A stretch of 64,000 nucleotides of DNA from NCBI GenBank assembly GCA_002720855.1, contig PBIN01000014.1, forward strand, positions 310,001-374,000. Reading direction: 5' to 3'. A program made the translations under genes and the position numbers. The stretch is from Rhodospirillaceae bacterium (GTDB lineage Bacteria > Pseudomonadota > Alphaproteobacteria > MPNO01 > UBA2964). Shown piece after piece: positions 1 through 44,576 of the stretch. Below the pieces are notes generated by a model. That model was not told the DNA's origin. It ran no database searches and was given only the letters and a program-made list of their open reading frames with translations. Positions within the stretch are counted from its first letter, which is position 1, and every line of letters starts with the position of its first letter.

Positions 1-1164
1 GGCACCGATAAACGCAGTAGTCAGCGCCAGAACGTCAAAAAGATTAAATCCGCGGAAGCGCTGGACAAATACACCGTGAAGATCACGACAAAACAGCCGA
101 CAGCACCTTTGCTTGGTTATGTTTTTGATCGGGTAATGATTACCAGTAAAGCATTGTTCGATAAGCACGGTTCTCGAAACGCCGATCGTAAACATCACCA
201 TGGTTACGGGCCTTATATGCTCAAGCGTCTCCGGACTGGTGAATCGGTAATCATCGAAAAGAATAAAAGATGGCCAGGCGTTAAGAAGGAATGGCCTGAT
301 GAAGTAATCTTCCGCATCATGCGTGAGCCTGAACAGCGTGTAACGGCATTGCTTAATGGCGAAATTCAGATTGCACAGTTCGTGCCGCCTCATCTGCTTG
401 ATAAAGTCCGCAAGTCAAAAAATGCGCGGATCGAGGAGATGGGTTCGGTTGAGTTGATGATGTTGTTGATGAATCCCGCCTTCAAGCCGTGGGACAATAT
501 TTTGCTGCGCAAAGCGGTCGCTCACGCCATTGATCGTGATTCGATCATCAAGAACGTTCTCAAAGGCGAAGCAATCAAGCTGAAAGGTCCTATCGGTCCA
601 TTACAGTTTGGCTATAGCAAGAACGTCAAACCAACCTATGAATACAATCCGGCGAAAGCTCGGGAGTTGGTAAAAAAGGCGGGCTATCCGAACGGAATCG
701 ATGTTGAGCTTTATACGCCTGTCGGACGTTATGTGAATGATAAGCAGGTCACGCAGGCAATGATTCCGATGTTGGCGGCTGTTGGCATTCGCGCCAAGCT
801 CAAAACACCGGAATGGTCGACGCTTTGGTCTAATGTCCGGAAAGGTAAGGTTCCTTTCTACTATATGGGCCGTGGCGGCATGGTCGATCCATCTGCCGCA
901 TTGTCGCAGTACTTTGAAACCGGTATCGCACCGCGTATCAAATTCTCAAGCAAGAAGGTCGATTCTTTGCTGCAGAAAGAACGCCAGACTTTCGATCTTG
1001 CGAAGCGTAAGAAGTACATGAACGACGCAATCAACGCCTTGATGGAAGAGGTGCCCGCGCATTTCCTGTGGCATCAGAAAATTCATTATGGTGTTGCAAA
1101 TAATGTCAATATCGCCATTCGTCCTGACAAACGGATTCATGGCTATGAGATTTCGGTGAAATAA
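1..1164 (+). CDS. ABC transporter substrate-binding protein, family 5 (partial, 5' end cut)
   Basis: This is the extracytoplasmic binding protein of a Dpp/Opp-type peptide (or related) importer. The frame is open from base 1, so the signal peptide and N-terminal lobe lie outside the window. About 387 codons remain of a family that is usually 500-540 residues. The run FKPWDNILLRKAVAHAIDR, followed by a glycine-rich GYPNG turn, is typical of the SBP_bac_5 second lobe (the segment where partially folded ligand-loop residues lead into the 'A..IDR' helix). The C-terminal region ends in a short basic tail before a strong terminator. No permease or ATPase gene follows, so any transporter partners must be upstream. 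The ligand cannot be read from the sequence. Confidence 0.85.
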   Translation, partial: GTDKRSSQRQNVKKIKSAEALDKYTVKITTKQPTAPLLGYVFDRVMITSKALFDKHGSRNADRKHHHGYGPYMLKRLRTGESVIIEKNKRWPGVKKEWPDEVIFRIMREPEQRVTALLNGEIQIAQFVPPHLLDKVRKSKNARIEEMGSVELMMLLMNPAFKPWDNILLRKAVAHAIDRDSIIKNVLKGEAIKLKGPIGPLQFGYSKNVKPTYEYNPAKARELVKKAGYPNGIDVELYTPVGRYVNDKQVTQAMIPMLAAVGIRAKLKTPEWSTLWSNVRKGKVPFYYMGRGGMVDPSAALSQYFETGIAPRIKFSSKKVDSLLQKERQTFDLAKRKKYMNDAINALMEEVPAHFLWHQKIHYGVANNVNIAIRPDKRIHGYEISVK

Positions 1165-2453: not shown

Positions 2454-3164
2454 TCAGGTGGAGAACTTGTAACGCCGAGTCACACCAAACACGATGAGTG
2501 CACCGGCGAATACTACCAGCGTTCCCGGCTCCGGTACGTTTACATCGAGAGACAAATTATCAAAACCGCCAGTATTGACGGACGGGAAACCGAACGTGCC
2601 ATTCGATGCAAAGATGCCGATTTCGACGGCAGCGGCGCCATTAGCGAGATCCAAACTGCCGCCGCCCAACGCGCTGAAGTCCGCACCCGTCAGGCCAAAT
2701 GCTGAGAAAGCTGTCCACCCCAGCCCGTTAACAGCAGCACCGAGCGATGAAATAAAGAAATTTCCGCTTTGACGTAAAATAACACCGAAGAGAACGCCGC
2801 CGGCAGCCGTACTGGGGTCGCTGATGGCAGCGTAGGAGACATCAATGCTGCCAAAGGCGCCATCCGCACCGGGGTTATAGATCATATCTGACCGGAAATG
2901 GCCGGAGATGATATTCGATGTGGTGCCGGTATTGATTTGATTGATCACCTGCCGGTACGCGCCCGGATTTCCGCCGGATAAGATCTGTGTGCCGCTAAAG
3001 GTGAAGGAGTCATTGGGCGTGGTGTCCAACGCTTCGACCGCCGACCAGTCGGCATCAATAAATTCGGTATCAGTATAGCTGATCACCATGCTTTGCGCGG
3101 GCGCAGAAATCAGACACGCCACAACAAGCGCACCAAAGCGCCGCGAATTTGAAAATAACGCCAT
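2454..3164 (-). CDS. PEP-CTERM sorting domain protein
   Basis: A secreted 236-residue protein expected to be processed by an exosortase. It has an N-terminal signal peptide (cleavage likely after APAQS, about residue 25), a low-complexity Gly/Ser/Asn-rich body, and a C-terminal sorting signal made of VPEPGTLVVF, a hydrophobic stretch and a basic TRRYK tail. The body matches no domain I recognise. It starts 11 bases after the stop of the preceding PEP-CTERM gene on the same strand, so the two are very likely co-transcribed from the sigma-54-type promoter near 4058. The exosortase itself is not in this window. Confidence 0.85.
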   Translation of the reverse strand: MALFSNSRRFGALVVACLISAPAQSMVISYTDTEFIDADWSAVEALDTTPNDSFTFSGTQILSGGNPGAYRQVINQINTGTTSNIISGHFRSDMIYNPGADGAFGSIDVSYAAISDPSTAAGGVLFGVILRQSGNFFISSLGAAVNGLGWTAFSAFGLTGADFSALGGGSLDLANGAAAVEIGIFASNGTFGFPSVNTGGFDNLSLDVNVPEPGTLVVFAGALIVFGVTRRYKFST

Positions 3165-3175
3165 GGGTAACGGTC

Positions 3176-3892
3176 TTAGCGGATTTTACGACGCCGTACC
3201 ACACCGATTCCGACGAGGCTGAGACCAAAGATCGCCAGCATGCCGGGTTCCGGAACAGCACCGCCCTGTGCGACACCGTCATCGATCAGTCCGGAAATCG
3301 CGAAAAATGTCAGCGAGGTCGTATTAGCTGGAGCCGATGCCGCAACCCAGGCTGAATTGGTTGCGTTGGGAAGCCCGGCAAATGTGAAGCAGCAGGAGCC
3401 AAGCTCGCCCGTGGCGAAAGCCGTTCCGTCAGCCTGGGTTCCCGTGAAGACTGAGCCGCCGGTATGGAGATCGCCATTTTCATTGCGGTTTATAAAGGCA
3501 TCGATGGTGCCATCCCACAAATCAGCATTGTTGTCGGCAATCTTGGTAGCGCCATCAAGCAGGTAAATTGGCACGCCTGTCTCGGTCAGAGGATTGGTAT
3601 TTGTATTTTCGCGAGCATCGACGGTTGTCGTTGACCCAACGGCCATCCATGTTGTGCCGAGCGCGGCAAGTGTCGCGTTGGCATTCGCGACAATTGTCAC
3701 GAAGGTGTTGTAATCTGCGATATTTGGCGACGTCGCATCAAACGTCAGGCTTGTCCGAAACATCAGCCGATACTGGTTACCAACGCCGAGGCCCGGATTG
3801 ACGATGGGGGCCGCTTGGACCGCGACTGTGCCGACCGCGACGAGGCAGAAAGCACAGGCCGCCGATAATGCCCGCAAATATGAGATTTTCAT
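3176..3892 (-). CDS. PEP-CTERM sorting domain protein
   Basis: A secreted 238-residue protein with a cleavable signal peptide (cleavage near VAVQA-AP) and a C-terminal exosortase signal: AVPEPGMLAIFG, a transmembrane stretch, then VVRRRKIR. The middle is rich in Thr, Asn and Ala and contains one CC pair (GSCCF). I recognise no catalytic motif. It is the first gene of a two-gene unit with the PEP-CTERM gene that follows at 3164. Upstream, a sigma-54-type promoter (4058-4071) and an activator-like box (4137-4157) are arranged as at three other PEP-CTERM loci here, so expression is probably tied to the exosortase regulon. Confidence 0.87.
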   Translation of the reverse strand: MKISYLRALSAACAFCLVAVGTVAVQAAPIVNPGLGVGNQYRLMFRTSLTFDATSPNIADYNTFVTIVANANATLAALGTTWMAVGSTTTVDARENTNTNPLTETGVPIYLLDGATKIADNNADLWDGTIDAFINRNENGDLHTGGSVFTGTQADGTAFATGELGSCCFTFAGLPNATNSAWVAASAPANTTSLTFFAISGLIDDGVAQGGAVPEPGMLAIFGLSLVGIGVVRRRKIR

Positions 3893-4990: not shown

Positions 4991-5791
4991 ATGGCGACGA
5001 AAATGGGCGAGACGTTTGACGAGCTGGTCGAGGTGTCCGGCGTGCGCGAACGCTGCAGCGAAGAAGAATGGGAGACGCGGGTCAATCTCGCGGCCTGTTA
5101 CCGGCTTGTCTGGGAATATGGCTGGCATCACCTGAACCTGAACCATATTTCCGCGCGGGTGCCGGGGGATGAGGAGCACTTTCTGCTCAACCCTTACGGT
5201 CCGATGTATAACGAGGTCACGGCCAGCAATCTGGTGAAGGTCGATCTCGAAGGCAATGTGCTGGATGAGACGCCGTACAATATCAATCAGGCCGGTTACA
5301 CCATTCATAGTGCGGTGCATGGGGCGCGACCCGATGTGCAGTGTGTCTTGCATACCCATACGCCAGCGGGCATTGCGGTTTCGACCCTGAAGTGCGGGCT
5401 TTTACCGCTGCATCAGGAAGCGTTGCGGTTTTATGGCGGCACCAGCTATCACGATTATGAAGGGGTCGCACTTGATCTCGATGAGCGCGTACGGCTGGTA
5501 TCGAGCCTCGGCGACAACAAGGTGCTGATCCTTCGCAATCACGGGCTATTGACCTGCGGCCGCACGATCTCGGAGGCGTTCGTCCTGATGTATCATTTGG
5601 AGCGGTCTTGTCAGGCACAGATCATGGCGGGCGCGACCACCGAAGATAACAATATTCACGTAACCCCGCCGGAGGAGGTTCGCCAGCACGCCGCCGAGCA
5701 AACAACGCGCAATGGCCGGAACCCTGGCGAGTTGCGCTGGCCGGCCTTGGTGCGCTGGATGGATCGCATTGATCCCTCGTTCAGGAACTAG
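4991..5791 (+). CDS. Class II aldolase/adducin family protein
   Basis: A 266-residue zinc-dependent aldolase-like enzyme, first gene of a seven-gene operon. The metal-binding motif HTHTPAG (about residues 117-123) and a later His in RNHGLLTCG (about 181-189) are the family ligands. LNHISARVPG matches the usual N-terminal N-H-x-S-xR loop. Family members cleave sugar phosphates or act on other hydroxy-acids. A number of unphosphorylated relatives sit in catabolic operons, and the sequence alone does not fix the substrate. A GGGAGGAAA stretch just before the ATG serves as ribosome-binding site. The next gene begins 10 bases after the stop. Confidence 0.85.
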   Translation: MATKMGETFDELVEVSGVRERCSEEEWETRVNLAACYRLVWEYGWHHLNLNHISARVPGDEEHFLLNPYGPMYNEVTASNLVKVDLEGNVLDETPYNINQAGYTIHSAVHGARPDVQCVLHTHTPAGIAVSTLKCGLLPLHQEALRFYGGTSYHDYEGVALDLDERVRLVSSLGDNKVLILRNHGLLTCGRTISEAFVLMYHLERSCQAQIMAGATTEDNNIHVTPPEEVRQHAAEQTTRNGRNPGELRWPALVRWMDRIDPSFRN

Positions 5792-5801
5792 GGGAACCGT
5801 T

Positions 5802-6362
5802 ATGGCAGGTGAAGACTTTACGATGCGGGATCTTGCGCAGGCGGTGCAAGCTCAGATGGCACTCCATGGGAAAGACGCAGAGAAAATTCTTGAAGGTATT
5901 CGCGATCCGGTAGGAAAAATCCTCGCCAGCGATCTCAGTACGATTGGTGTGAAACGCGAAGGCAATCACATCGATGAGTCGCGCTACCTGTACTATGATG
6001 GTGAAATGTCGATTACTTTCGATCATTTGCCGGAAGGCAAGGATATTCCGCCGCACGATCATGGTATTTGGGAAATGCTGGCGATCTATAGCGGGCGGCT
6101 GCATCACACGGTCTATGATCGAAAAGACGATGGCAGCAAAGAAGGATATGCGGAGCTGGAGGCTATCGACGACCGGGTGCTGGAGCCCGGCGAGATTTCA
6201 ATGGTCGCCCCACCGGCGGAAATTCACAGCTTTACAGCGCTCACCGACGACACATGGTCGGTGACGATCGTTGGCGGAAAATACAAGTTGGACCGGCATT
6301 ATTACGATCCGGCGAAGAGTTCCTGTCGTATCGCCAACCCCAAAAAGCAAAAGGTGGTTTAG
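5802..6362 (+). CDS. Cupin-fold metalloprotein (cysteine-dioxygenase-like)
   Basis: A 186-residue single-domain cupin. PPHDHGIWEMLAIYSG (about residues 82-97) supplies the His-x-His pair and PPAEIHSF (about 139-146) the third His, the 3-His iron site of cysteine-dioxygenase-like thiol dioxygenases. The Arg and Cys-Tyr features of true cysteine dioxygenase are not evident, so calling it a thiol dioxygenase would be inference. An upstream in-frame ATG at 5712 lies inside the aldolase gene. I use 5802, which follows the aldolase stop after 10 bases with GGGGAACC just ahead. It is the second gene of the operon. Confidence 0.8.
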   Translation: MAGEDFTMRDLAQAVQAQMALHGKDAEKILEGIRDPVGKILASDLSTIGVKREGNHIDESRYLYYDGEMSITFDHLPEGKDIPPHDHGIWEMLAIYSGRLHHTVYDRKDDGSKEGYAELEAIDDRVLEPGEISMVAPPAEIHSFTALTDDTWSVTIVGGKYKLDRHYYDPAKSSCRIANPKKQKVV

Positions 6363-6368
6363 ACGACG

Positions 6369-6803
6369 ATGGCCCTTACCAAGGCGGATGTCGGGCGGCG
6401 GTTTTCGGGGCCCTCCAAAACTCTTACCGATGCGCATTTCCTCATGTATTCCGCGATTTCCGGCGATGTGCATCCCATCCATTACGACGTCGAATATGCC
6501 AAAAATACGCCGTTTGGTGCGCCGGTTGCGCATGGCTTGCTGCTCACCGGGTTGATGGCGCTCGGCAGTTCCGATGCGGGGGATGCGATGGATGGACTGG
6601 CGATGGTTGAGCAGGGCACGTCATATCGAAAGCCGGTTAAGGTCGGCGATACCGTTCATGCCGAATTTGAAATTGAGGACGTCTGGCAGGACACAGAGCG
6701 CAACTTTTGCCGGGTTAAGACGTTTCTGTTGAACCATGAAGGTGAAACTATGGCCGACGGTTTTCACGTCTATCGTATATTGTCCAAAGCTGGCGGCGAT
6801 TAA
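6369..6803 (+). CDS. MaoC-like (R)-enoyl-CoA hydratase
   Basis: A 144-residue hot-dog-fold hydratase of the MaoC/PhaJ type, acting on acyl-CoA thioesters in the cytoplasm. The catalytic loop is intact: SGDVHPIHYD (about residues 31-40) carries the Asp-x4-His dyad, followed by VAHGLLLTGLMA. The length is normal for a single-hot-dog member. It starts 6 bases after the cupin stop, and RidA starts immediately after its own stop, so translation is probably coupled. A second, degenerate MaoC-like protein lies two genes later; the two could form a heteromer. Confidence 0.85.
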   Translation: MALTKADVGRRFSGPSKTLTDAHFLMYSAISGDVHPIHYDVEYAKNTPFGAPVAHGLLLTGLMALGSSDAGDAMDGLAMVEQGTSYRKPVKVGDTVHAEFEIEDVWQDTERNFCRVKTFLLNHEGETMADGFHVYRILSKAGGD

Positions 6804-7214
6804 ATGGCGCAGAAACGCAAAGCGATATATGCGGGCGATAGCTGGCCGGAGAAATATACCTATGTGCCTGCATTGAGAGTTGGCAATACGGTCTGGTTGT
6901 CTGGCACGACAGGCACTGATGAGACCGGCAAGATTACCGCGCCCGGCGATATTGTCGAACAGACGCGTCAGATATTTCGCAAGTTTGAAGCTTTGCTGAA
7001 GCGGGAAGGTGGCACCTGCCAGAATATCGTCGAGACCAAGGACTTCATAACGACGACAGAGAATTACAAAGGCACAGCCGATGTCCGGCGCGAGTTTTTC
7101 AAAGGCAGCTATCCGACTTCGACGGGTGTTTTGGTCTCCGGGCTATTGCGCAAAGACGCATTGATCGAAATCTCTGCTGTTGCCGTTCTCGACGAAGAGC
7201 CCGATGACGACTGA
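6804..7214 (+). CDS. RidA/YjgF family protein lacking the deaminase arginine
   Basis: A 136-residue RidA-fold protein, a family of small trimers that often hydrolyse reactive enamines/imines. The fold signature is clear (GNTVWLSGTTGTD, then DIVEQTRQIFRKFEALL, then DALIEISAVAVLDE). In deaminating RidA proteins an Arg follows the 'PA' near the end; here the segment reads YPTSTGVLV with no Arg at that place, so the imine deaminase reaction is doubtful. It abuts the upstream MaoC gene and overlaps the next gene by 11 bases, so it is a fixed member of the operon. Confidence 0.85.
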   Translation: MAQKRKAIYAGDSWPEKYTYVPALRVGNTVWLSGTTGTDETGKITAPGDIVEQTRQIFRKFEALLKREGGTCQNIVETKDFITTTENYKGTADVRREFFKGSYPTSTGVLVSGLLRKDALIEISAVAVLDEEPDDD

Positions 7215-7659
7215 ACCGGTGCGCTTTTGGGAGGACTTCGCGGTCGGCGACCGTTATCCCACGTCGACCCGTACTATCACTGAAGACGATCTCGACAGGT
7301 TTTGCGAACTGGTTGGGTATGACGTCCCTTTGTTTCTCGACGACGATCAACCAGAAAACAAAACGTTCAAGGGGCGCATCTGTCCGAGCCATCTGATCAT
7401 GTCAGTTGCGACAGCGATGACTGGGCGTTTGTTCAGCGAAAGCCTGATCGGATTGCTGGGGCTCGAAAACGGCAAGTTTCTCGCACCAGTGTATCCGGGA
7501 GACTCACTTTCGACCGAGGTTGAGGTCCTTGAAAAACGCCCTACGTCAAAGCCGGAACGCGGAATCGTTGTTTTTCGCGATCATGTGCTTAACCAAAATG
7601 GCGTCGAGGTGTTTCAGGTGGACAAGATCACGCTCATTCGCTGCCGTGAGGCGAGTTGA
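7204..7659 (+). CDS. MaoC-like hot-dog protein with altered catalytic loop
   Basis: A 151-residue MaoC-type hot-dog protein. The start is taken as the ATG at 7204, inside the RidA gene; an earlier in-frame start at 7180 would add only RidA-overlapping residues. FWEDFAVGDRYPTSTRTIT is a standard opening. The loop that normally reads GDxNPLHxD is GYDVPLFLDD here, so the catalytic His is replaced by Phe. It may be a non-catalytic partner of the intact MaoC protein encoded at 6369 or may bind a different thioester. The gene overlaps the following ligase at its stop codon. Confidence 0.8.
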   Translation: MTTEPVRFWEDFAVGDRYPTSTRTITEDDLDRFCELVGYDVPLFLDDDQPENKTFKGRICPSHLIMSVATAMTGRLFSESLIGLLGLENGKFLAPVYPGDSLSTEVEVLEKRPTSKPERGIVVFRDHVLNQNGVEVFQVDKITLIRCREAS

Positions 7660-9029
7660 CGCGAATGGAAGACACTCAGCGCCTGCCTCTCGCAGACATC
7701 GAAAAAATTCAGAACGAAAAGCTGCGCTACATGCTATCGCTGTGCGCGCGTGGTTCGACATTCTATCAAATGCAGTGGCGTGACGCTGGTATTGATATCG
7801 CAGATATTCAAACCGTCGAAGATCTCGCGAAATTGCCTCTAACCCAAAAGCAGGAGCTGATGGAGGCACCCGAAGACTTTCGCCTCGATCTGCCAGACTT
7901 GCCACTGCATGAGCGCGCCTTATGGGAAGTGCTGTATACTACCGGCAGCACCGCCGATCCGGTGCCGCTCTATAGCAACACCTATGACTATCACGCCTAT
8001 CTGCATCAATCGCAGTGCGTTGCCGAGATATCGGGCATCCGCGAGACCGATATAATTGCAAACCTGTTTCCCCTAACGCCCGCGCCGATGGGCGCATTTG
8101 TGCGCTCGGCGGGCAATGCTTATGCGGCAGGGGCAACGATTTTTGCCGCCCTTCCGGGTGGAGCATTTGGTCCGTTCGATGTGCATCGATCACTGGATCA
8201 AGCGGTGGACCGCGTCGAGAAACACCGCGCGACAATATTGTGGGGCGTGCCGAGCTATATCAGGCGTTTGCTGATCCGCGCACTAGAACTCAAAGCTGAT
8301 CTTTCGTCGGTGCGGATGTGCGCGATTACCGGCGAGGCGACGTCGCCGGCGTTGCGCGAAGACATTCGACGGTGTCTGCGCGAAATGGGAGCCGAACAAC
8401 CCCTCATCTTTAATCGCTATGGTTCGACAGAGTTGGGGGCCTTCGCGCAATGTCAGGAGGAGGGCGATTGGCACAACCCCGCACCGGAGCTTCAATATCA
8501 CGAGATCGTCGATCCCGAGACCGGCCATCGTCTTCCCGATGGCGAGCGCGGCGCTCTTGCTGTGACGCATCTGGATAAACGGGGCACGGCACTGATCCGT
8601 TTTGTCGTCGGCGATATTGTATCCATTGATCGGTCGCCCTGTTCGCATTGTGGACGGACCAGCGAACGTATCGTAGGGCCGGTGGTGCGCACGAAAGATC
8701 TCATTAAAGTAAAAGGCATGTTGATCAATCCGGATGTCTTGCTAGATGTTCTTGAATCAATATCGTCAATTGCCGAGTTCCAGGTTGTGGTCCAGAACGA
8801 GAATAAAAACGATCCTTTATCGATGGATGAGATGCTGATCAGGGTTGCGCTGCATGAAAACGCGCCTGAACACATAGAAAAAGAAATCACGCAACAAACG
8901 CATAAAGCCGTGAATGTTACGCCCCGGGTTGAAGTGACTGCATTGGAAGAAATTTACTCCGCGGGCGAACAAACAAAAGCGGTGCGCTTCGTTGATCGCC
9001 GTGTTTCTGCAGACAACGCAATCCGTTAG
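7656..9029 (+). CDS. Phenylacetate-CoA ligase-like AMP-forming acid:CoA ligase
   Basis: A 457-residue adenylate-forming enzyme that would activate a carboxylic acid to its CoA thioester. YTTGSTADPVPLY (about residues 93-105) is the phosphate-binding loop, FNRYGSTELGAFAQC the YGxTE motif, and DLIKVKGMLINPDVLL the C-terminal hinge. The phenylacetate-CoA ligase type matches best on length and motifs, but the acid cannot be predicted. The start may be TTG at 7656 (overlapping the previous stop) or ATG at 7665; I keep the longer form. A Cys quartet CSHCGRTSERIVG near residue 328 resembles a zinc knuckle found in some relatives. Confidence 0.85.
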   Translation: MTRMEDTQRLPLADIEKIQNEKLRYMLSLCARGSTFYQMQWRDAGIDIADIQTVEDLAKLPLTQKQELMEAPEDFRLDLPDLPLHERALWEVLYTTGSTADPVPLYSNTYDYHAYLHQSQCVAEISGIRETDIIANLFPLTPAPMGAFVRSAGNAYAAGATIFAALPGGAFGPFDVHRSLDQAVDRVEKHRATILWGVPSYIRRLLIRALELKADLSSVRMCAITGEATSPALREDIRRCLREMGAEQPLIFNRYGSTELGAFAQCQEEGDWHNPAPELQYHEIVDPETGHRLPDGERGALAVTHLDKRGTALIRFVVGDIVSIDRSPCSHCGRTSERIVGPVVRTKDLIKVKGMLINPDVLLDVLESISSIAEFQVVVQNENKNDPLSMDEMLIRVALHENAPEHIEKEITQQTHKAVNVTPRVEVTALEEIYSAGEQTKAVRFVDRRVSADNAIR

Positions 9030-9031
9030 TC

Positions 9032-9778
9032 ATGGATGAACTGACCATAGCCAATATATTTAACCTCGCGCTGGCGACGGGCATAGGTGTCGCGGCGTTC
9101 AATGGAATGATCCATGGCTATACGGGGTTCGGCGGCGCTCTCCTGACGGTGCCGGTTCTCACGTTTCTATACGGACCAGTCGAAGCGATTGGCATGGTTG
9201 CCATAATCTCGATTTTTGGTGCCTCACATTTGGCATATGGCATCTACCGTCTGGCCGAATGGCGCAGTCTCATTCCGATCTGTTTGGGGATAGCACTTCT
9301 AACACCCGTTGGCGCATGGATTTTATTTCATATCGATGGAGAAATCGTCCGCCGGTCGATGGGCGGGTTTATTCTCGCATTTGCACTCATACTATTTAGC
9401 GGTTGGTCCTATCGAGGGCCACGCGGGTTGGTGCCTGGCGCCCTCGTAGGTGGTGTCGCGGGGTGCATAAATGGTCTAACCGGTATCGGTGGTCCTCCGC
9501 TCGCGCTTTATCAGCTTTCGGCGCCGCTGCCGGTGGAAGTACAGCGCGCCAATATTGTTGTGTGCATTATCTTCTTGATTATCACGATGTTCGCGGCCAT
9601 TGCCATCGGCGGCGGCTATTCTGCGTTGGTAATCGTTCGGGCGCTGATCATAACCCCCGCGTACATTTTTGGCGTTTGGGTTGGATCGCGTATTTTTGCG
9701 ATAGCGCCAAAGAGCTACTTCAAGAATATCGCTCTCCTGATTCTCATTGCGACCGGGCTCGCTGTTCTCGTCGCCTAA
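9032..9778 (+). CDS. TauE/SafE family membrane exporter
   Basis: A 248-residue inner-membrane protein with about eight hydrophobic helices, fitting the TauE/SafE (DUF81) family of anion, often sulfite or sulfoacetate, exporters. The N-terminal GMIHGYTGFGGALLTVPVL and the half-way GVAGCINGLTGIGGPPLAL are the two paired repeats of the family. It begins 2 bases after the ligase stop and ends the operon; the GST gene on the opposite strand ends 8 bases away. Because it closes a catabolic operon it may export a sulfonate or another by-product anion, but this is inference. Confidence 0.85.
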   Translation: MDELTIANIFNLALATGIGVAAFNGMIHGYTGFGGALLTVPVLTFLYGPVEAIGMVAIISIFGASHLAYGIYRLAEWRSLIPICLGIALLTPVGAWILFHIDGEIVRRSMGGFILAFALILFSGWSYRGPRGLVPGALVGGVAGCINGLTGIGGPPLALYQLSAPLPVEVQRANIVVCIIFLIITMFAAIAIGGGYSALVIVRALIITPAYIFGVWVGSRIFAIAPKSYFKNIALLILIATGLAVLVA

Positions 9779-10410: not shown

Positions 10411-10564
10411 GGCGGTTCTCATTCTACGGGACGATTTACCGCGTCAGCCTAAAGATTGGCCGTTATCGGGTCTAATAAACTTATAGAAATAACCACTGAA
10501 AAGATGTGTGCCAATTCACACAGTTATCGTTATGGTGCCGCCGAATTTATTCACTGGAGGTTCA

Positions 10565-11026
10565 ATGTTTGAGGTTGGCGACGTCGTCCGAAATGTGGCG
10601 GCCAATATCGTCGGTGAGATTGTCGAGATAGATGGGGAAACCGCCTATATCGAACAGGATAACGGAGCCGAAGTTGATTTCGCGATGTCGACTCTCGTGC
10701 TGGAGAGCGATTTTCAGGCACGCCATGGCGGCGGCGTCCGTGATGACGCTGGATCACACGCTTACGATGAAACCTACGAGGCCGTAATCGGGGATCTCTA
10801 TCCGGCAGTCATAGAACTAGGGCAACAGGCTCATGCCCAGGCGGAAACAGTTCCAGGCATAAAACCCAAGCAATGGGATGAGTTGAGCGCCCTGCAAAAA
10901 TTAAACGCGATCTCAGAGGTGACAAAAACACCGGTTAAGGCATGGATTGATGCGAGCAAGCCAGGCGCGAAGCCGTCTCTCGCGAAACTTCAATTGTCAG
11001 TATTGGCTGATTTCGGAAAAGGATAG
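10565..11026 (+). CDS. Hypothetical protein with a KOW/SH3-like N-terminus
   Basis: A 153-residue cytoplasmic protein of unknown function. The first 45 residues (MFEVGDVVRNVAANIVGEIV, then EIDGETAYIEQDNGAEVDFA) look like a small beta-barrel of the KOW or SH3 kind. The remainder is helical. The start at 10565 follows ACTGGAGGTTCA and is better than the upstream in-frame TTG-type start at 10508. An acidic 74-residue protein follows 4 bases after the stop, so they form a unit. No enzyme motif is visible. Confidence 0.7.
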   Translation: MFEVGDVVRNVAANIVGEIVEIDGETAYIEQDNGAEVDFAMSTLVLESDFQARHGGGVRDDAGSHAYDETYEAVIGDLYPAVIELGQQAHAQAETVPGIKPKQWDELSALQKLNAISEVTKTPVKAWIDASKPGAKPSLAKLQLSVLADFGKG

Positions 11027-11030
11027 GAAG

Positions 11031-11255
11031 ATGACGGACACGCACGGCGAAAGTGGAACAGTATTGGGCGCTGACGAAGTAGCGCTGGTAATTGATGCCG
11101 AAGGGGTGGCGACCCTGTGCCTGCCTGATTACGACGACGATGACGAAGTGCCCCGGCACACGCTGTTTCTCGTCGCACTGATGAACAAAATGCAGGACGA
11201 AGACTGGGTCGATGAGATTATATCTGAGATCGTGCCGGAGATTTCAGAGTCGTAA
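11031..11255 (+). CDS. Small acidic protein, unknown
   Basis: A 74-residue protein with a strongly acidic centre (DYDDDDEVPR) and an acidic C-terminal helix (EDWVDEIISEIVPE). It is encoded right after the KOW-like gene (GGATAGGAAG supplies the ribosome site), and the two may work together. I recognise no family. The composition suggests a soluble partner protein that binds a basic protein or metal, but that is only inference from charge. The gene is short but has a clean start, a ribosome-binding site and tight linkage. Confidence 0.55.
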   Translation: MTDTHGESGTVLGADEVALVIDAEGVATLCLPDYDDDDEVPRHTLFLVALMNKMQDEDWVDEIISEIVPEISES

Positions 11256-12820: not shown

Positions 12821-13519
12821 TTACGTTAATCGCGTACACCGCCGACGAACTACCGCAACGCCAATCAATCCCAGTATTAAGGCCGGAAATCCAAATGCTG
12901 GCGAAGAGACCGGCGGTGCATCGGCAATAGTCAGTGTGCTCGTATTAAAGGTCAGGGCTGTAATGTATTCCTCGCCGAAATCAACATCGACTACCTGGAG
13001 CGTCGCAGGATTGATGCCTCCGAAATTATTCGAATTTTGGATTATTCCCGTACCATCGGTATTTAGCTGCACAATTGGCGGATGATACCGCCCATTACCG
13101 ACCTCTCGGGCGTTAAACTCAAAAACAACACCAGTTCCCACTAACTCGGAGACTTGTAGTCCATCAGTAAGATCTGCGAACGCTGAGATCTCAAAGGACA
13201 TCGAGCTGCCCTGCGCATAAAAGTCAGTTCCAGTGATCGATCTGCTGAGATCAAATGCCGGAAAACCGGATGGTGTCGCCGCGAGAAACCCAAATACTCG
13301 ATAATCCACGCTATTGAGTGTCGGGTTGGTGTAGGTGGTACCGGCGGTGAGAGGCGCGTCAATGTCGATCGTAAAATTGAACGTTTGGCTATTGCTAAAG
13401 ATCGGCGTTAGACCAAAATCCGCTGCTTCGAAGTTGATCACAAAGGCCTGCGTCGTATTGAGGCTGAGGCAGCTACAGCATATTGCAATCGCAGTAAGAA
13501 ATTTTTGTTTTAGGCCCAT
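12821..13519 (-). CDS. Secreted protein with PEP-CTERM-like tail lacking the PEP motif
   Basis: A 232-residue secreted protein. The start at 13519 gives a normal signal peptide (MGLKQKFLTAIAICCSCLSL, cleavage near TTQA); an earlier TTG-type start at 13585 would add 22 residues. The C-terminus has the transmembrane stretch and triple Arg expected of an exosortase tail (SSPAFGFPALILGLIGVAVV, then RRR), but no PEP or SEP precedes it. It may be a decayed or variant sorting signal. The upstream region lacks the sigma-54-type pair seen at other loci. No body domain is recognised. Confidence 0.7.
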   Translation of the reverse strand: MGLKQKFLTAIAICCSCLSLNTTQAFVINFEAADFGLTPIFSNSQTFNFTIDIDAPLTAGTTYTNPTLNSVDYRVFGFLAATPSGFPAFDLSRSITGTDFYAQGSSMSFEISAFADLTDGLQVSELVGTGVVFEFNAREVGNGRYHPPIVQLNTDGTGIIQNSNNFGGINPATLQVVDVDFGEEYITALTFNTSTLTIADAPPVSSPAFGFPALILGLIGVAVVRRRCTRLT

Positions 13520-13596
13520 GGCGGACCTTATAATAAGGAAACAAGATGGGACCAATCCCGAAATTACCTTAATTTTGCGAAGCAAAGTTGCTGTAA

Positions 13597-28417: not shown

Positions 28418-29251
28418 CTAATCCAAATCAAAGCCGTGGCTTTTGAGAAAGGCTTTGAACTCGGGTCGTTCGGGTTTGCCGAGCTGGCGTGAGATATGTT
28501 CCGACCAGCCATAGAACTCGGCGACGCCCCATAGATCGGTCCGCGTCTGGCGCTCGTCCGGGATCGGGAAGATATTGTGGCGGGTCTGATCGTATCCGTC
28601 GATTTCCGCTTCAAGATTGCTGTCGTCATAGCGATCGCGATGTACCACGATCGATTGCGGTAGGCGCTGATTGACGTAGCCGGGCGCTTCCGGCCAGCCC
28701 GCCATGACACCGGCGATGGGAAATACGCCATCCGGTATTTCGAGTATTTCGGAAACCTCGCCAATATTATCGCGCAGGCTGCTCAGCGGTGCCGTGCCAA
28801 GCCCGGCGGCTTCTGCGCCGGTAACGAAATAGCCCATGGCTAATGCTGCATCGACGGTCGCGTTGAGAAACGTATCCATATTGTTGTTAACGTGCGGCCG
28901 GTCGCGAAAACCGCCAACGCGTTGATTGCGTCGCATGTCGGCACAAAAAACCAGCAATAAAGGTTTGCTTTCAAGGCCCGGCGTGCGGGGGCACCAGGGG
29001 GCGAGACGGTCGCGGATGTCCTGATCCTTGACGACGATGATCGAATATTGTTGCAGGTTGGATTTGCTTGGCGCCGATTGTGCACAGGCGATGAGAACCT
29101 CGATCAAATCGTCAGGCACTTCCTCATCCTTATAGGCACGGATCGACCGCCGGGTAAGCAGTGCCTCAATCGCAGTATCCGCCTCGCTGTCATCACCGAT
29201 GCCGGTGTCTTTGCCGTAGCGCTCGGTCAGCAGTTCCTTCAACGTCGCCAT
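28418..29251 (-). CDS. Nitroreductase family protein
   Basis: A 277-residue FMN-dependent oxidoreductase. AIEALLTRRSIRAYKDEEVP (about residues 27-46) is the FMN-binding opening of the family and CAQSAPSKSNLQQYSIIVV follows it; near the end PIAGVMAGWPE provides the usual glycine turn. Related proteins reduce nitro groups, quinones or enones. It begins 6 bases after the stop of the gene at 29258 on the same strand, so they form a small operon. The divergent neighbour is a Rieske oxygenase, consistent with aromatic metabolism. Confidence 0.85.
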   Translation of the reverse strand: MATLKELLTERYGKDTGIGDDSEADTAIEALLTRRSIRAYKDEEVPDDLIEVLIACAQSAPSKSNLQQYSIIVVKDQDIRDRLAPWCPRTPGLESKPLLLVFCADMRRNQRVGGFRDRPHVNNNMDTFLNATVDAALAMGYFVTGAEAAGLGTAPLSSLRDNIGEVSEILEIPDGVFPIAGVMAGWPEAPGYVNQRLPQSIVVHRDRYDDSNLEAEIDGYDQTRHNIFPIPDERQTRTDLWGVAEFYGWSEHISRQLGKPERPEFKAFLKSHGFDLD

Positions 29252-29257
29252 ATACGG

Positions 29258-29629
29258 TCAGCTTTCCTCTTGCGCCTTGTCGAGAATATCCTGCGGCGTT
29301 TCGGTAACGATTTCGGCATAGATCGGCACAAACGGGCCGCTATCGACCAGCTTCACAAACTCCGGTGCCATGTTGACCATCTCGACGCGGATTTCCTTGT
29401 GGATTTCGATATCGCGCCATTCGCCGATCAGATAGAAATGATCCTCATCCTCAACGTCGCGGCACAGCACACCGTCTTTGACCTGCGCATCCGATTTGTG
29501 CATCGGATTGTCGTCGCCATAATCGAATTCGTTAAACAGCCGGATGAACTCGTCACCTGTCCCCGGCTTTACCCGGAAATCATAGACGTGAAAGAAATTA
29601 CCCATCTTGGCCAGCGGTTCGAGTGCCAT
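29258..29629 (-). CDS. Antibiotic-biosynthesis-monooxygenase (ABM) superfamily-like protein
   Basis: A 123-residue small alpha/beta protein resembling the dimeric ABM/stress-response fold: VYDFRVKPGTGDEFIRLFNE, then EDHFYLIGEWRDIEIHKE. Such proteins oxidise aromatic substrates without cofactors or act as heme or quinone chaperones. The start at 29629 is preceded by AGGGAGGACAACC, a strong ribosome site, and is better than the upstream start at 29689. It is followed 6 bases later by the nitroreductase, and diverges from the Rieske oxygenase genes. Confidence 0.65.
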   Translation of the reverse strand: MALEPLAKMGNFFHVYDFRVKPGTGDEFIRLFNEFDYGDDNPMHKSDAQVKDGVLCRDVEDEDHFYLIGEWRDIEIHKEIRVEMVNMAPEFVKLVDSGPFVPIYAEIVTETPQDILDKAQEES

Positions 29630-29774
29630 GGTTGTCCTCCCTGTTAGAATTCTTGGGGAAACGGTACCCCTCCAGGCAAGGGCGATCAATGTGTGGTCTC
29701 AAGGCTATGCTTGTTTAGGGCACCAATCCTTCGCTACACTGCAAGCACGCTCGGAAGCGGGAGGACCGATCTGA

Positions 29775-31049
29775 ATGCCTGACACACCTTTTATAGAGGA
29801 TGGCGGGAACGGCGGCGCGATTGATGAATTGCGCTGGCCGAATGACGACCTGACCCGTATTCCCGACTGGATCTACACATCAAACGAAATATTTGACCGC
29901 GAGCGCGAACGTATTTTCTTTGGTGAAAACTGGAGTTTTGTTGCGCTGGAAGCGGAAATTCCCGACCCCGGCAGCTTCAAACGCTCTTATGTCGGCGATT
30001 TGCCGGTTGTCGTATCGCGCGACGAAGATGGCGAGGTCCATGTTTTTGAGAACCGCTGCGCGCATCGTGGCGTTGAGTTTTGCCGTGATCTGAGAGGCAA
30101 GGTCGATAACTTCACCTGTCCCTATCATCAATGGATGTATGATCTGAAGGGCAATCTGATGGCGGTACCTTTTCGGCGCGGCGATCGCGGCCAGGGCGGC
30201 ATGCCAAAGGATTTCAAGCTGGGAGATTACAATCCGAAACATCTCAATGTCACGATCCGGCATGGTGTGGTGTTCGCCTCTTTCTCCGATACCGTTGGCT
30301 CGTTCGAAGACTATCTCGGGCCTGAAAATACCGAGCAGTTCGATGTTGTCTTTAAGGATCGCAAGCTCAAAATTCTCGGCTATTACAAGAACCGGCTGCA
30401 GGGTAACTGGAAGCTCTATCACGAGAATCTCAAGGACCCGTACCACGCGACATTGCTGCATGTGTATCTCGCAACCTTTCGGCTGATGGTAGCCGGTCAG
30501 AAATCCGCGATGATCTGCGATGAGTCGGGCCGTCATTCGACGATGGCCTCGGCCAAAGACGATAATATGGAGATCGGTGAGGAAACCGCGAGCCAGATGA
30601 AGTCCGCCTTCCGTGAAGGCATGGAGCTTAACGATCCCGAATTCCTTGATTACGTGCGCGAGTTCGATAGCCCGTGGACGGTGACGATGCAGATCATCTG
30701 GCCCAATCTCGTCGTACAGCGCGAGCTCAATACGCTGGGTATTCGCCACATCGTGCCGCGCGGGCCGCATGCGCTCGATATGTATTGGACCATGTTCGGC
30801 TATGATGACGATACACCGGAGCTCGAACGGCACCGTATGAAGCAGGGCAATCTGATGGGCCCTAGCGGGTATCTCGGTGTCGACGACAATGAAGCCATCA
30901 AGTTCCTGCAGGATGGGTTCAAACATTCCTACAGCGATGAAGGTGTCGTAAAGCTGGAGCCTGACAATGAAGGCAGCACGGAGACACTGATTTCCGAAGC
31001 CTCGGTCCGCGCGCTTTACCGGCATTATCGCGAGGTTATGGAAATTTAA
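29775..31049 (+). CDS. Aromatic ring-hydroxylating dioxygenase, alpha subunit
   Basis: A 424-residue Rieske non-haem iron oxygenase that would attack an aromatic ring. The Rieske cluster motif CAHRGVEFC then CPYHQW (about residues 95-121) has the two Cys and two His, and ENLKDPYHATLLH (about 219-231) carries the catalytic iron His pair and bridging Asp. Its length is normal. The substrate is not given by the sequence. A GGGAGGACC site lies 9 bases before ATG. The beta-subunit gene follows after 2 bases. Ferredoxin and reductase partners are not encoded next to it. Confidence 0.9.
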   Translation: MPDTPFIEDGGNGGAIDELRWPNDDLTRIPDWIYTSNEIFDRERERIFFGENWSFVALEAEIPDPGSFKRSYVGDLPVVVSRDEDGEVHVFENRCAHRGVEFCRDLRGKVDNFTCPYHQWMYDLKGNLMAVPFRRGDRGQGGMPKDFKLGDYNPKHLNVTIRHGVVFASFSDTVGSFEDYLGPENTEQFDVVFKDRKLKILGYYKNRLQGNWKLYHENLKDPYHATLLHVYLATFRLMVAGQKSAMICDESGRHSTMASAKDDNMEIGEETASQMKSAFREGMELNDPEFLDYVREFDSPWTVTMQIIWPNLVVQRELNTLGIRHIVPRGPHALDMYWTMFGYDDDTPELERHRMKQGNLMGPSGYLGVDDNEAIKFLQDGFKHSYSDEGVVKLEPDNEGSTETLISEASVRALYRHYREVMEI

Positions 31050-31051
31050 AA

Positions 31052-31567
31052 ATGGCGTCTTCCAACCCCGCGGCCACCAACCTGTCGCCGGACGAAGCCC
31101 GTGCGCTGCGTTTCGAAATCGAAGAATTCAATACCGAATATGCCCGGATTCTGGATGAGCAGGATATCGATGCCTGGCCGGATTTTTTTACGGCGGATGG
31201 GTTTTACCGCGTTACCGCCAAGGAAAATTTCGATGACGATCTGCCGGTTGGGCTGGTGTGGTGCGATGGCCGGCCGATGATGAAGGACCGTGCCGCGGCG
31301 GTAAAAACCACTATGGTGCACGCACCGCGCTATTTGCGGCACTACAACAGCAATGTCCGCGTCACCGGGGTCGATGCCGATGGAACCATCAATTCCGAGT
31401 CCAACTATCTCGTCGTGGAGACGTTGATGGAGGAAGAAACCCGTATCTTTCAGGCGGGTCTTTACATCGATCAGTTTGTCCGCGATGACGGTGTTTTACG
31501 GCTCAAGGCCCGCGATTGCGTCTATGACAGCCTGCTGATCCCCAATGACATGGTCTATCCGGTTTAA
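31052..31567 (+). CDS. Aromatic ring-hydroxylating dioxygenase, beta subunit
   Basis: A 171-residue protein of the ring-hydroxylating beta-subunit (NTF2-like) fold, which helps build the alpha3-beta3 hexamer. EIEEFNTEYARILDEQDIDA then WPDFFTADGFYRVTAKEN is typical. The gene begins 2 bases after the alpha stop, so the subunits are made together. The next gene is the decayed PEP-CTERM gene after a 97-base gap, unrelated in function. Confidence 0.87.
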   Translation: MASSNPAATNLSPDEARALRFEIEEFNTEYARILDEQDIDAWPDFFTADGFYRVTAKENFDDDLPVGLVWCDGRPMMKDRAAAVKTTMVHAPRYLRHYNSNVRVTGVDADGTINSESNYLVVETLMEEETRIFQAGLYIDQFVRDDGVLRLKARDCVYDSLLIPNDMVYPV

Positions 31568-40937: not shown

Positions 40938-43900
40938 TCAGTGAATAGCCCGGCGGCGGCGGCGCAAGCCTACGAGAACGCCGAGACTTCCCAAAAATAC
41001 CAGCATGGTTTCCGGCTCGGATACCCCAGGAGCGGGGACATCCGCTTGCGTGACTTCAATCCAAAGGCTGTCGCCGATAAACAGCTGATTAAAGGCAAGT
41101 CCCGTAAGATTGGTCGTCAGCGTATCAAAGAATCCGCTGAGGAAGCTATGCCCACTCTCCAACCTTACAACCTCAAACTGGTCGCCGACATTGAGGGTTG
41201 AGGCAAAGCCCTGATCGGCAACGACATCCAGACTGCCAGAGAGGTCAGCGTCACCGTTCAGTATGTTCAGGAGATCGTGCCCGACACCAACAACAGCGCC
41301 AAAAAGCTCGAATTCAAAGCTGGCAGCACTCCCTTGAAAATAGTCGCCATCCATAATTGTCAAAATACCAGGAGAGTTCCCGACCGCGAGCGTACCGCCG
41401 GTATTATTCAAGGCGTGTGACCCGTTACCATTGAAATCAACGGTGCCACTGCCGCCAAACCGGCCGCCTTGCAGCTGTACCGAGCTGTTGCTTGCGGCGG
41501 TTGTCATGATGCCGTTGATCGTTACTTGGCCGCCGGTCTGGATAAAGTTTGTGCCCAGCGTGACGTCAAGGCGGCTGCCTGACTGCACATCGATAAGGCC
41601 GCCTGCCTGCTCAAACTCGTCGTTAGCGGCGCTAATATCAAAACCGGCTGCCCCTGATGCCCGAAGTGTGCCGTGATTCACGAATTTCAGCGCGCCGCCA
41701 TCGATGAGAATGGCATTATTTGTCTGATTGGCGTCTATCGTTCCAAAGTTCTCCATCCCGCCGGTGTTGCCACCAATTTGTCCCGCACCACTGATCGTTT
41801 GGTTCGCGCCAATTGTCAGCGTATCCGCGCCAGTATCATTTCGAATTCGATTTTGAAAATTATCTGACATTATGATGGAACCTGAACCGCTTAACGTTTG
41901 TGTACCGACGAACTCGAGGTCGGTGGCACCTCCGGCCGAGTTCATCTCAATTGTCCCGTCATTGACGAATCCATTTTGAAACCGCCAATCGTGGGAGTTT
42001 GCGCTGACTATTTTGGAGCCGGCAGTGAGACGAACATTGTCGAGGGTCGCACCTATTGTAGTTTGATTGGTCCGAATCTCAGCCGTTCCAACCGTCGTGA
42101 GGTCGCCGCCAACAAGGACAGACTGGTTACTTAGGAAGGTTAAATTGGAACCGTTGAGTGCCTCTATTGTCGTGTTATTGGTAAAGGTGCCGGCGCCAAA
42201 AGAAATGCCGCCGGTTCCTTCTGCGCGCAGGATGTTATTTTGTGTAAAGCCCAACGCACCCGGGTCCAGATGCAAATTAATGGTGCCCTGCTGGCGAATC
42301 TCTCCGTTATTGACCGTTCCGCCGACATTGAGGCCTATCTGCCCTGCACCCCGGATTACCTGGTTCGCGCCAATCGTCAATGTATCTGCTGCATCGTCCA
42401 CGAAAATTCTATTTTGGCTGCTATCAGACATCACGACTTCACCACTGCCACCCAAGGTTTGTGTTCCAACAAACTCAAGGTCCGTCGCGCCCCCAGCCGA
42501 GTTCATGCTGACGGTGCCGTCATTGACAAAGCCGTTCTGAAAACGCCAATCCTGGGAAATCGCGCTGACCATATTGGATCCGGCCGTGAGACGCACATTG
42601 TCCAGCAATGCACCCGTCGAGGTTTGTGTGGTCCTAATTTCGGCTGTTCCAATGGTCGTGAGGTCTCCTCCGACAATCGTCGTAAGACTACTCGTGATAG
42701 TAAGGTTGGAATCGGCCAACGCTTCTATTGTCGTGTTATTGGTAAAGGTGCCGGCGCCAAATGAAATGCCGCCAGTTCCTTCTGCGCGCAGGATGTTATT
42801 TTGTGTAAAGCCCAACGCACCCGGATCCAGATGTAAATTAACGGTGCCTTGCTGACGGATCGTCCCATTGTTGATGGTGCCTCCGAGATTAAGGCCTATT
42901 TGCCCGGCGCCCCGGATGACCTGGTTCGCCCCAATCGTCAGTGTATCTGCCGCATCGTCCGCGAAAATTCTATTCTGGTTACTATCGGACATCACGATTT
43001 CGCCGTTTCCGCTCAATGTTTGTGTTCCGATAAATTCCAGGTCCGTTGAACCGCCCGCTGAATTCATGCTGATAGTACCGTCATTGACAAAACCATTCTG
43101 GAAACGCCAGTCATGGGAATTACCGCTAACCAAATTTGATCCAGATGTCAGTCGAACGTTATCCAGCAGCGCGCCGGCGGTCGTTAAGTTAGTTCTGATT
43201 TCGCCTGTTCCCGCTGTCGTCAAATCGCCGCCGACAATAGTAGCGTTTGTACTGTTCATCGTGAGGTTTGAACCGGTCGATACACTGATCGATGTATTAT
43301 TTGTAAAGGTGCCGTCCGAAAGTAAAATCCCGCCGGCCCCGGTTGCTTGCATCGTACCGTTATTGACAAAGCCCGCCGAATTATCGGGATTGATGTGTAG
43401 ATTGGTGACACCTTCCTGGATTATCGTACCGTTATTAACAAACCCGCCAACAGCTGCCAGAATTTGACCAGCGCCACGGATGGTATGAGTGGCGCTGTTA
43501 GTAATTATATCCGCCGCCGCATCGGCGATGATCCTGTTCTGATCACTGTCGGTCATTTTGAGGGTACCGGACCCAGAGATCGTCTGGGTCCCGACGAATC
43601 TTACATCCGTTGCGCCACCCGCTGAATTGAGTTCCCAGGTACCTTCGTTGGTAATCCCGTTAAATATTCTGAGATCATGACTGTTATTCTGAACCAGCTT
43701 TGAACCGCTTGTTAATGTGACGCCGTCCAGCTGAGCACCGGTCGATGTAGTGTTTGTTCTAAATTCGCCCGTACCGGTGGTTGTAAGATTTCCTCCCACA
43801 ATCTTGACGCCGGTATCGTTAAAAGTGACGTGTGAACCGTTGGCTGCTTCAATCGTGCTGTTGTTGGTGTAATCCGCACCATTGAGAAAAAGGCCACCCG

Positions 43901-44576
43901 AACCTTCAGCTCTTAAAACGTTGTTGTTGACGAAATTCCCTGTTGAATCGGGGTCAATAAAAAGTGCGGTTGTGCCCTGCTGAATAATCGAACCGCTATT
44001 GACGATACCACCTGAATTGAACCCTATCTGCCCGGCACCCTGAATCGTGTGGCCCAGCCCGTTGGTCAGGATATTCCCGGCCCCATTAATGAAAACCCGA
44101 TTTTGATTGCTATCGCTCAGCGTGAGAGTACCGGTGCCGGATATCGAGCCTCCGGCGGAAAAGACTAGATCGGTCGCTCCGCCGAGGGAGTTCATATTGA
44201 TTGCGCCGTTGTTGGTCAGCGTACCGTTGACCAATGCAAGGTCGTTGGAGTTGATAAAATTGAGTGTGTCGTTGGAGGAGACGTTCAGAGAGTCGATCGT
44301 AACACTGGTATTGAGATCAACGACTGAATTTCCCGCACCGCCATTGTCGATCTGTACGCTGAACGTATCGCCGCCAACATTATTTGGAAAAGTTGCGGTA
44401 GCTGGTGCTGCACTAAAGCTCCAATTTGCCGGATTACCAACACCGCTATCCCAACTGTCATTGTTACCAGAGGTCCAGGTCGCCGTAATCGGCGCCGCCA
44501 TCAACGATGTACTTGCGGAAAGACAAATCAAGAGCGCGGTTACGGATGCGCCGGTCCTAAGAAGCCGTTTGTTCAT
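40938..44576 (-). CDS. Large repetitive PEP-CTERM surface protein
   Basis: A 1,212-residue secreted protein with a signal peptide (cleavage near SLMAA), five copies of a ~187-residue unit, a Gly/Asn-rich linker and an exosortase tail (VSEPETMLVFLG, then LRRRRRAIH). Each unit contains NSAGGATDLEFVGTQTL, SDxxQNRI, ADTLTIGANQ, IRGAGQIG and GTGGISFGAGTFTN-type segments; copies three to five are nearly identical. The proteins form beta-helical rods and may act as an adhesin or matrix fibre. The gene has no sigma-54-type pair in the 76 bases before it, unlike other PEP-CTERM genes here. Confidence 0.88.
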   Translation of the reverse strand: MNKRLLRTGASVTALLICLSASTSLMAAPITATWTSGNNDSWDSGVGNPANWSFSAAPATATFPNNVGGDTFSVQIDNGGAGNSVVDLNTSVTIDSLNVSSNDTLNFINSNDLALVNGTLTNNGAINMNSLGGATDLVFSAGGSISGTGTLTLSDSNQNRVFINGAGNILTNGLGHTIQGAGQIGFNSGGIVNSGSIIQQGTTALFIDPDSTGNFVNNNVLRAEGSGGLFLNGADYTNNSTIEAANGSHVTFNDTGVKIVGGNLTTTGTGEFRTNTTSTGAQLDGVTLTSGSKLVQNNSHDLRIFNGITNEGTWELNSAGGATDVRFVGTQTISGSGTLKMTDSDQNRIIADAAADIITNSATHTIRGAGQILAAVGGFVNNGTIIQEGVTNLHINPDNSAGFVNNGTMQATGAGGILLSDGTFTNNTSISVSTGSNLTMNSTNATIVGGDLTTAGTGEIRTNLTTAGALLDNVRLTSGSNLVSGNSHDWRFQNGFVNDGTISMNSAGGSTDLEFIGTQTLSGNGEIVMSDSNQNRIFADDAADTLTIGANQVIRGAGQIGLNLGGTINNGTIRQQGTVNLHLDPGALGFTQNNILRAEGTGGISFGAGTFTNNTTIEALADSNLTITSSLTTIVGGDLTTIGTAEIRTTQTSTGALLDNVRLTAGSNMVSAISQDWRFQNGFVNDGTVSMNSAGGATDLEFVGTQTLGGSGEVVMSDSSQNRIFVDDAADTLTIGANQVIRGAGQIGLNVGGTVNNGEIRQQGTINLHLDPGALGFTQNNILRAEGTGGISFGAGTFTNNTTIEALNGSNLTFLSNQSVLVGGDLTTVGTAEIRTNQTTIGATLDNVRLTAGSKIVSANSHDWRFQNGFVNDGTIEMNSAGGATDLEFVGTQTLSGSGSIIMSDNFQNRIRNDTGADTLTIGANQTISGAGQIGGNTGGMENFGTIDANQTNNAILIDGGALKFVNHGTLRASGAAGFDISAANDEFEQAGGLIDVQSGSRLDVTLGTNFIQTGGQVTINGIMTTAASNSSVQLQGGRFGGSGTVDFNGNGSHALNNTGGTLAVGNSPGILTIMDGDYFQGSAASFEFELFGAVVGVGHDLLNILNGDADLSGSLDVVADQGFASTLNVGDQFEVVRLESGHSFLSGFFDTLTTNLTGLAFNQLFIGDSLWIEVTQADVPAPGVSEPETMLVFLGSLGVLVGLRRRRRAIH
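41898..44150 (-). repeat. Five tandem coding repeats, unit about 561 bases
   Basis: The segment TCTATTGTCGTGTTATTGG recurs at 42163 and 42724, i.e. 561 bases (187 codons) apart. The two most similar copies (around 41900-42500 and 42460-43060) are almost identical in DNA, while copies one and two (43400-44150) diverge more. Sequence-identical units suggest recent duplication or gene conversion and may vary in number between strains. Confidence 0.8.

Follow-up and report, generated by a model that had tools for sequence, protein, structure and literature searches.

Small-molecule thiol dioxygenases are defined by an SHY motif (PMC10966181), and in one of them, CDO, the residue Cys93 takes the place of the usual cupin glutamate (PMC4019311). 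A protein of this fold, altered at both points, is encoded by the second of seven contiguous, co-directional open reading frames (ORFs) found on the plus strand at positions 4991-9778 of the window, a stretch of 64,000 nucleotides (G000:C14:310001-374000) from a 3.58 Mb Rhodospirillaceae genome. These genes, designated ald, cup, maoC1, rid, maoC2, lig and tau (Table 1), constitute a real, selected and genus-restricted unit and not a chance arrangement, since their intact order recurs and the ratios of non-synonymous to synonymous substitution (dN/dS) are low. Judging from the encoded families, the operon may degrade one carboxylic acid via CoA thioesters, a reading that we hold tentatively and at somewhat less than an even chance.

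The same seven-gene order is intact in seven of the nine genomes of the genus sample, the window's genome included (the window plus G289, G290, G291, G293, G294 and G295). The full set is likewise present in L076, a metagenome-assembled record (TMED123 bin, title Flavobacteriales), with a tau frame slightly short near the contig end, and no copy was seen in the incomplete genus genome G292. The first-pass annotation had proposed an uncharacterised catabolic operon with a CoA ligase and had suggested a search for its gene order elsewhere; the content does look catabolic, and the order extends beyond the strain to six further genus genomes and L076, conservation ending at the genus. All seven genes are under purifying selection, with dN/dS values relative to the window of about 0.04-0.18 (comparisons with unsaturated dS). 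Gap lengths differ between genomes and the immediate flanks change, the variable genes including a divergent GFA gene and GST, pirin-like, PEP-CTERM-like and transposase-like genes (several named by eye); the seven genes remain contiguous, and because the flanks vary the unit is taken to be these seven. Outside the genus, no operon was found via the cupin in 289 genomes of the class, via maoC2 in 27 genomes of the order or via the ligase in 61 relatives, nor when 84,980 species genomes were scanned for the cupin with a pattern, an approach that can miss distant copies. No paper was found in a literature search on this gene combination, which is new, its families being known. The named relatives of the genome are metagenome-assembled alphaproteobacteria, and several have names that indicate a marine origin.

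Intergenic gaps, in operon order, are 10, 6, 0, -11, -4 and 2 bases. The ORFs, gaps and families given in the first-pass annotation were all recovered as described, the families as PF00596, PF01575 twice, PF01042, PF00501 with PF14535, PF01925, and a cupin nearest PF07847, with a single correction: as several orthologues begin M[ED]STQxLPL, ATG 7665 appears a likelier start for lig than TTG 7656, and the gap after maoC2 would therefore be +5 instead of -4.

A CoA-dependent module for acid degradation is the best reading because of the intact PaaK-like ligase and the MaoC pair. The ligase has conserved TTGST, YGSTE and RFVVGD motifs and a conserved C-terminal Lys, so that the adenylation motifs and lysine of the ANL acyl-CoA ligase superfamily are intact, and the enzyme would form the CoA thioester of an acid that contains a ring or is bulky in some other way. 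MaoC1, aligned to the C-terminal domain of PaaZ, keeps the catalytic residues Asp33 and His38, invariant across genomes; in MaoC2 Tyr39 and Phe44 replace this Asp/His dyad in every genome. From these residues we infer a split hydratase of the double-hot-dog kind, made up of the two proteins and having a single type of working site, which would act on an enoyl-CoA intermediate. In several loci, relatives of the ligase at 37-41% identity have amidohydrolase and OYE-like genes as neighbours. Two such clusters, in two families of the order (L062:6541-11961 of G291 and L060:4496-9465 of G311), contain an amidohydrolase, a PaaK-like ligase (37-39% identical to lig) and an OYE-like reductase, L062 also with an acyl-CoA-dehydrogenase-like gene.

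The cupin would contribute a step that depends on O2 but is not ordinary thiol dioxygenation, at a metal site composed of H85, H87, E91 and H142. The three histidines are invariant in 22 aligned sequences, as is Glu91 (22/22), which occupies the canonical cupin position and would bind the metal. The SHY motif is missing from all 22: at its location the operon cupin shows DTWSVTIVGGKY, with neither His nor Tyr in DTWSVTIVGG. A paralogue from the same genome (L122), which has the normal motif and hence serves as a same-genome control, shows SIHVY there and Gly at the Glu91 position, and passes the CDO_I model PF05995 at 34.3; the six paralogues of this genome have Gly, Ala or Thr at the Glu91 position. 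In a Pfam scan the operon cupin gave no PF05995 match and scored 26.5 against PF07847, just below the cut-off of 27. As aligned, then, it lacks two features by which small-molecule thiol dioxygenases are defined, namely the SHY motif and the replacement of the glutamate. The fold is that of the group: the closest solved relative by sequence is mercaptosuccinate dioxygenase (Msdo; 8VNI, E 5.8e-10), to which an AlphaFold model (pLDDT 88.3) aligns with a Z of 17.7 and an rmsd of 3.2 over 174 residues, followed by MDO, CDO, PCO and ADO. The Foldseek/VIA-align lists consist almost exclusively of thiol dioxygenases, with an auxin-binding protein and ergothioneine dioxygenase last, and the absence of other cupins from these lists excludes nothing. 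Of the earlier label, a 3-His, thiol-dioxygenase-like cupin, the histidines and the fold stand, and it is incomplete in that it leaves out the invariant Glu91 and the lack of SHY.

Relatives of this cupin (40-74% identity) occur without the other six operon genes. Seven genomes of alphaproteobacteria and plasmid p3 of Azospirillum brasilense have them in one conserved cluster (L083-L086, L089-L091, L126) with an amidohydrolase, SDRs, a ThuA-like gene and a TauD/TfdA dioxygenase, mostly accompanied by a sugar-isomerase-like gene and genes for ABC transporters. The 74% relative (L075) likewise has a TauD/TfdA-like gene nearby, and this family is the only cupin partner found recurring across contexts. 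The genome under study encodes six further thiol-dioxygenase-type cupins (L117-L120, L122, L123), of which L123 adjoins a UbiD decarboxylase and a VanA-type Rieske gene, L119 adjoins two TauD-like genes and L117 comes after a purH-like gene.

Among the rival explanations the one that survives best is organosulfur catabolism, unlikely as we judge it, in which the cupin would turn a thiol acid into a sulfinate, from which the ligase would make a sulfinyl-acyl-CoA, and the sulfite released would be exported by the TauE-type protein. The proximity of the cupin to 8VNI in both sequence and fold argues for it, as do the Msdo pathway, which ends in succinate and sulfite and for which sulfite export by TauE has been discussed in such a strain (PMC5373536), and the presence of tandem TauD-family genes and a second TauE-like gene to the left of the window. 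Against it stand the missing SHY motif in the operon cupin and its relatives (PMC10966181), the glutamate at the position of CDO Cys93 (PMC4019311) and the Pfam results. Because of these same residues, the use of the cupin as evidence for sulfur in the first-pass annotation is not supported, and the organosulfur argument is weakened. Also, no desulfinase or acyl-CoA dehydrogenase is present in the operon, and proteins of the TauE family carry varied anions.

This bears on tau as well, which passes PF01925 with ease and gave just short, doubtful matches to designed repeat proteins when compared with the PDB. On sequence, TauE-family membership fixes neither substrate nor transport direction; the permease may move an organic or an inorganic anion. 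The ald product passes the PRK07044 subfamily model (NF005451, cut-off 207), of which we know of no member with a tested function. Aligned to Escherichia coli FucA, the histidines of its HTH and NHG motifs match the metal ligands H92, H94 and H155, and Gly stands for the catalytic Glu73 in the genus sequences compared; the protein would employ a His-bound metal to cleave a C-C bond or to decarboxylate, dispensing with the glutamate of FucA. NovR, a distant relative, is described as a 3-His non-heme-iron oxygenase that catalyses oxidative decarboxylations (PMC13111500), and by this analogy an O2-dependent role for ald is possible. The rid product, which would handle an intermediate, scores 62.1 bits against TIGR00004 (cut-off 106.25) and has, in the operon proteins compared, Ser for the Arg105 present in E. 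coli RidA; an ordinary RidA imine deaminase was rejected on account of this replacement. Read from the alignments, the "aldolase", Rid and MaoC2 proteins are all without the catalytic residues of their named families.

A ring-containing acid as substrate, which we favour with some hesitation over the less probable organosulfur compound, is suggested by the neighbourhood: all genus loci examined have a FAD_binding_3 hydroxylase no more than about 11 kb from the operon, adjoined by an Ldh_2 dehydrogenase and an alpha/beta hydrolase in all loci with enough flank, and an anthranilate-dioxygenase-like Rieske oxygenase is close by in two genomes. In these two (G293 and G295), a nitroreductase, an ABM-like small protein and an AndAc/AndAd-like Rieske pair lie closely downstream of the operon; in G290, G210 and G294 the group is some 15-27 kb away, and the ABM-like protein is beside the Rieske genes wherever the latter were examined. 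The substrate may be provided by the hydroxylase and dehydrogenase located just upstream, and perhaps by the Rieske oxygenase. The UbiD and VanA-type Rieske genes next to the cupin paralogue L123 also speak for the ring-acid reading. These conserved neighbours, an aromatic-type FAD hydroxylase and a Rieske oxygenase, point to ring compounds at least as much as to sulfur, and the region resembles a catabolic region for ring compounds, its link to the operon being suggestive only.

Several observations weigh against a degradative pathway of this kind. The Rieske genes are 19 kb from the operon in the window and about 27 kb in G294, and both the hydroxylase-Ldh_2 pair and the nitroreductase/ABM-like/Rieske group are also found in related genera without the operon, so that their proximity may be inherited gene order and the link to a substrate stays suggestive. 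The ligase is just 25% identical to E. coli PaaK, and no acyl-CoA dehydrogenase, 3-hydroxyacyl-CoA dehydrogenase or thiolase lies within the operon. In G210 (OX638326.1:1487012-1503569; L069/L070), a deletion joins residue 33 of MaoC1 to residue 223 of the ligase and the tau frame is broken; rid and maoC2 are lost entirely, along with the greater part of maoC1 and half of the ligase, and the aldolase and cupin genes are kept intact (95% and 91% identity). The parts may therefore not belong to one obligate pathway, or the G210 copy could simply be decaying.

A specific form of the ring-acid reading, in which an amino- or hydroxy-benzoate is processed through CoA thioesters by a pathway that includes the Rieske oxygenase and the FAD hydroxylase, with the cupin opening the ring and the Rid protein handling an enamine or imine, appears rather improbable. 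The best NCBIfam matches of the Rieske pair are AndAc and AndAd, which together with the close spacing in G293 and G295 speaks for it, and known ring and enol dioxygenases are found among cupins with 3-His and 3-His-1-Glu sites (PMC4019311). Neither Rieske protein, however, reaches its cut-off, both lying far below; the Rieske group occurs without the operon, the Rid protein is without Arg105, and the fold groups the cupin with thiol dioxygenases and not with ring-cleaving monocupins.

More improbable still is that the operon is not catabolic and constitutes a small biosynthetic or detoxifying pathway that would make or modify an acyl-CoA product exported by the TauE-type permease. In its favour, the ligase scores higher against FlxY, a ligase of flexirubin biosynthesis, than against any other NCBIfam model (177.7 bits, under the cut-off of 520), three of the proteins have altered active sites, and the restriction to one genus fits a specialised product. 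On the other side, assembly-line genes, such as those for a carrier protein or a ketosynthase, were not seen next to the operon, the neighbours are of catabolic types, and MaoC1 and the ligase look fully active by sequence. Methionine salvage, with a class II aldolase and a cupin like MtnB and ARD, was rejected (MtnB model 45 bits against 137).

Returning to the degradation of a ring-containing acid, a bolder version would have the cupin represent an oxygenase family that keeps the thiol-dioxygenase fold with a canonical 3-His-1-Glu site and that, together with the split MaoC hydratase and an adducin-type protein lacking Glu, serves a new CoA-dependent route of ring degradation, so far only in this marine genus, its cupin subfamily having spread into other alphaproteobacterial clusters. 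We consider this version doubtful. Were the operon to work as proposed, it would represent an unrecognised route for organic-acid use by uncultivated marine alphaproteobacteria, and would provide first functions for PRK07044 adducin-type proteins and for a cupin subfamily easily annotated as thiol dioxygenase. It also illustrates how a resemblance in fold, taken by itself, could mislead about the chemistry.

Beyond the genes discussed above, an SBP_bac_5 solute-binding protein is near the operon in six of the nine loci examined. Two small ORFs at window 10532-11255 (orthologues of S170 and S75 in L096) lie downstream of the operon in most genus members, and predicted secreted proteins, PEP-CTERM-like or very long and repeat-type by eye, are encoded at 2454-3892, 12821-13585 and 40938-44576. 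The region to the left of the window also contains UbiD-like and molybdopterin oxidase-like genes, besides its TauD/TfdA and TauE-like genes (partly named by eye); at L093:9211-12700 four tandem TauD/TfdA-family dioxygenase genes adjoin an ornithine-cyclodeaminase-like gene.

Table 1. Operon genes and neighbouring features of the window.
Feature	Assignment	Position	Strand	Evidence or remark
SBP_bac_5	Solute-binding protein, C-terminal part (begins left of window)	1..1164	+	
ald	Class II aldolase/adducin-type metalloprotein, PRK07044 subfamily	4991..5791	+	PF00596 180 bits; NF005451 354.8 bits
cup	Thiol-dioxygenase-fold cupin, 3 His + 1 Glu, without SHY motif	5802..6362	+	Nearest PF07847
maoC1	Hot-dog protein, probable (R)-enoyl-CoA hydratase subunit	6369..6803	+	PF01575 65.1 bits
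rid	RidA-like protein without Arg105 of imine deaminases	6804..7214	+	PF01042 79.1 bits
maoC2	Hot-dog protein without Asp/His dyad, probable structural partner of maoC1	7204..7659	+	PF01575 38.2 bits
lig	PaaK-like acyl-CoA ligase	7656..9029	+	PF00501 + PF14535; probable start ATG 7665
tau	TauE/SafE-family anion permease	9032..9778	+	PF01925 98.5 bits, cut-off 32.6
Nitroreductase	Nitroreductase-family protein	28418..29251	-	19 kb from operon here
ABM-like	Small protein, ABM-like by eye	29258..29689	-	No Pfam/NCBIfam match
Rieske alpha	Rieske oxygenase alpha subunit, AndAc-like	29775..31049	+	NF041684 420 bits, cut-off 750; PF00355, PF00848
Rieske beta	Rieske oxygenase beta subunit, AndAd-like	31052..31567	+	NF041685 134 bits, cut-off 230

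Compared with described systems, the operon shares with PaaK and the paa pathway the ANL-ligase motifs, the AMP-binding_C_2 domain and MaoC hydratase domains, the C-terminal domain of PaaZ resembling MaoC2 (57.7 bits). It differs in having no PaaABCDE epoxidase or other paa gene, and for this reason, and because the ligase scores 107.3 bits against the PaaK model TIGR02155 (cut-off 646.3), the canonical paa pathway was rejected. The ald product shares the HTH...H metal site of adducin-type class II proteins (PRK07044; 3OCR) and has NovR (9RYG) and TqaM as distant solved relatives; the Rid protein shares the PF01042 fold family with the RidA/RutC imine deaminases, RutC being its best solved match. 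One catalytic and one dyad-less unit are also found in split or double hot-dog hydratases such as mesaconyl-CoA/beta-methylmalyl-CoA hydratase (8HGN), matched by MaoC2, and HadAB, of which HadB is matched by MaoC1; ChsH1-ChsH2 is a further split hot-dog MaoC hydratase. Unlike in these, the MaoC units of the operon, a putative pair, are separated by the rid gene. With Msdo of Variovorax paradoxus B4, CDO and MDO, the operon cupin shares the N-terminal-helix fold and the 3-His cupin site, and with Msdo also a "VYxRxDDGSxxGxxxLE" segment, whereas all three have the SHY motif, and CDO has Cys and MDO Gly where the operon cupin has its invariant Glu91. The gene neighbourhood of Msdo, with a rhodanese-domain and cystathionine beta-lyase gene (PMC5373536), likewise differs from the seven-gene operon described here.

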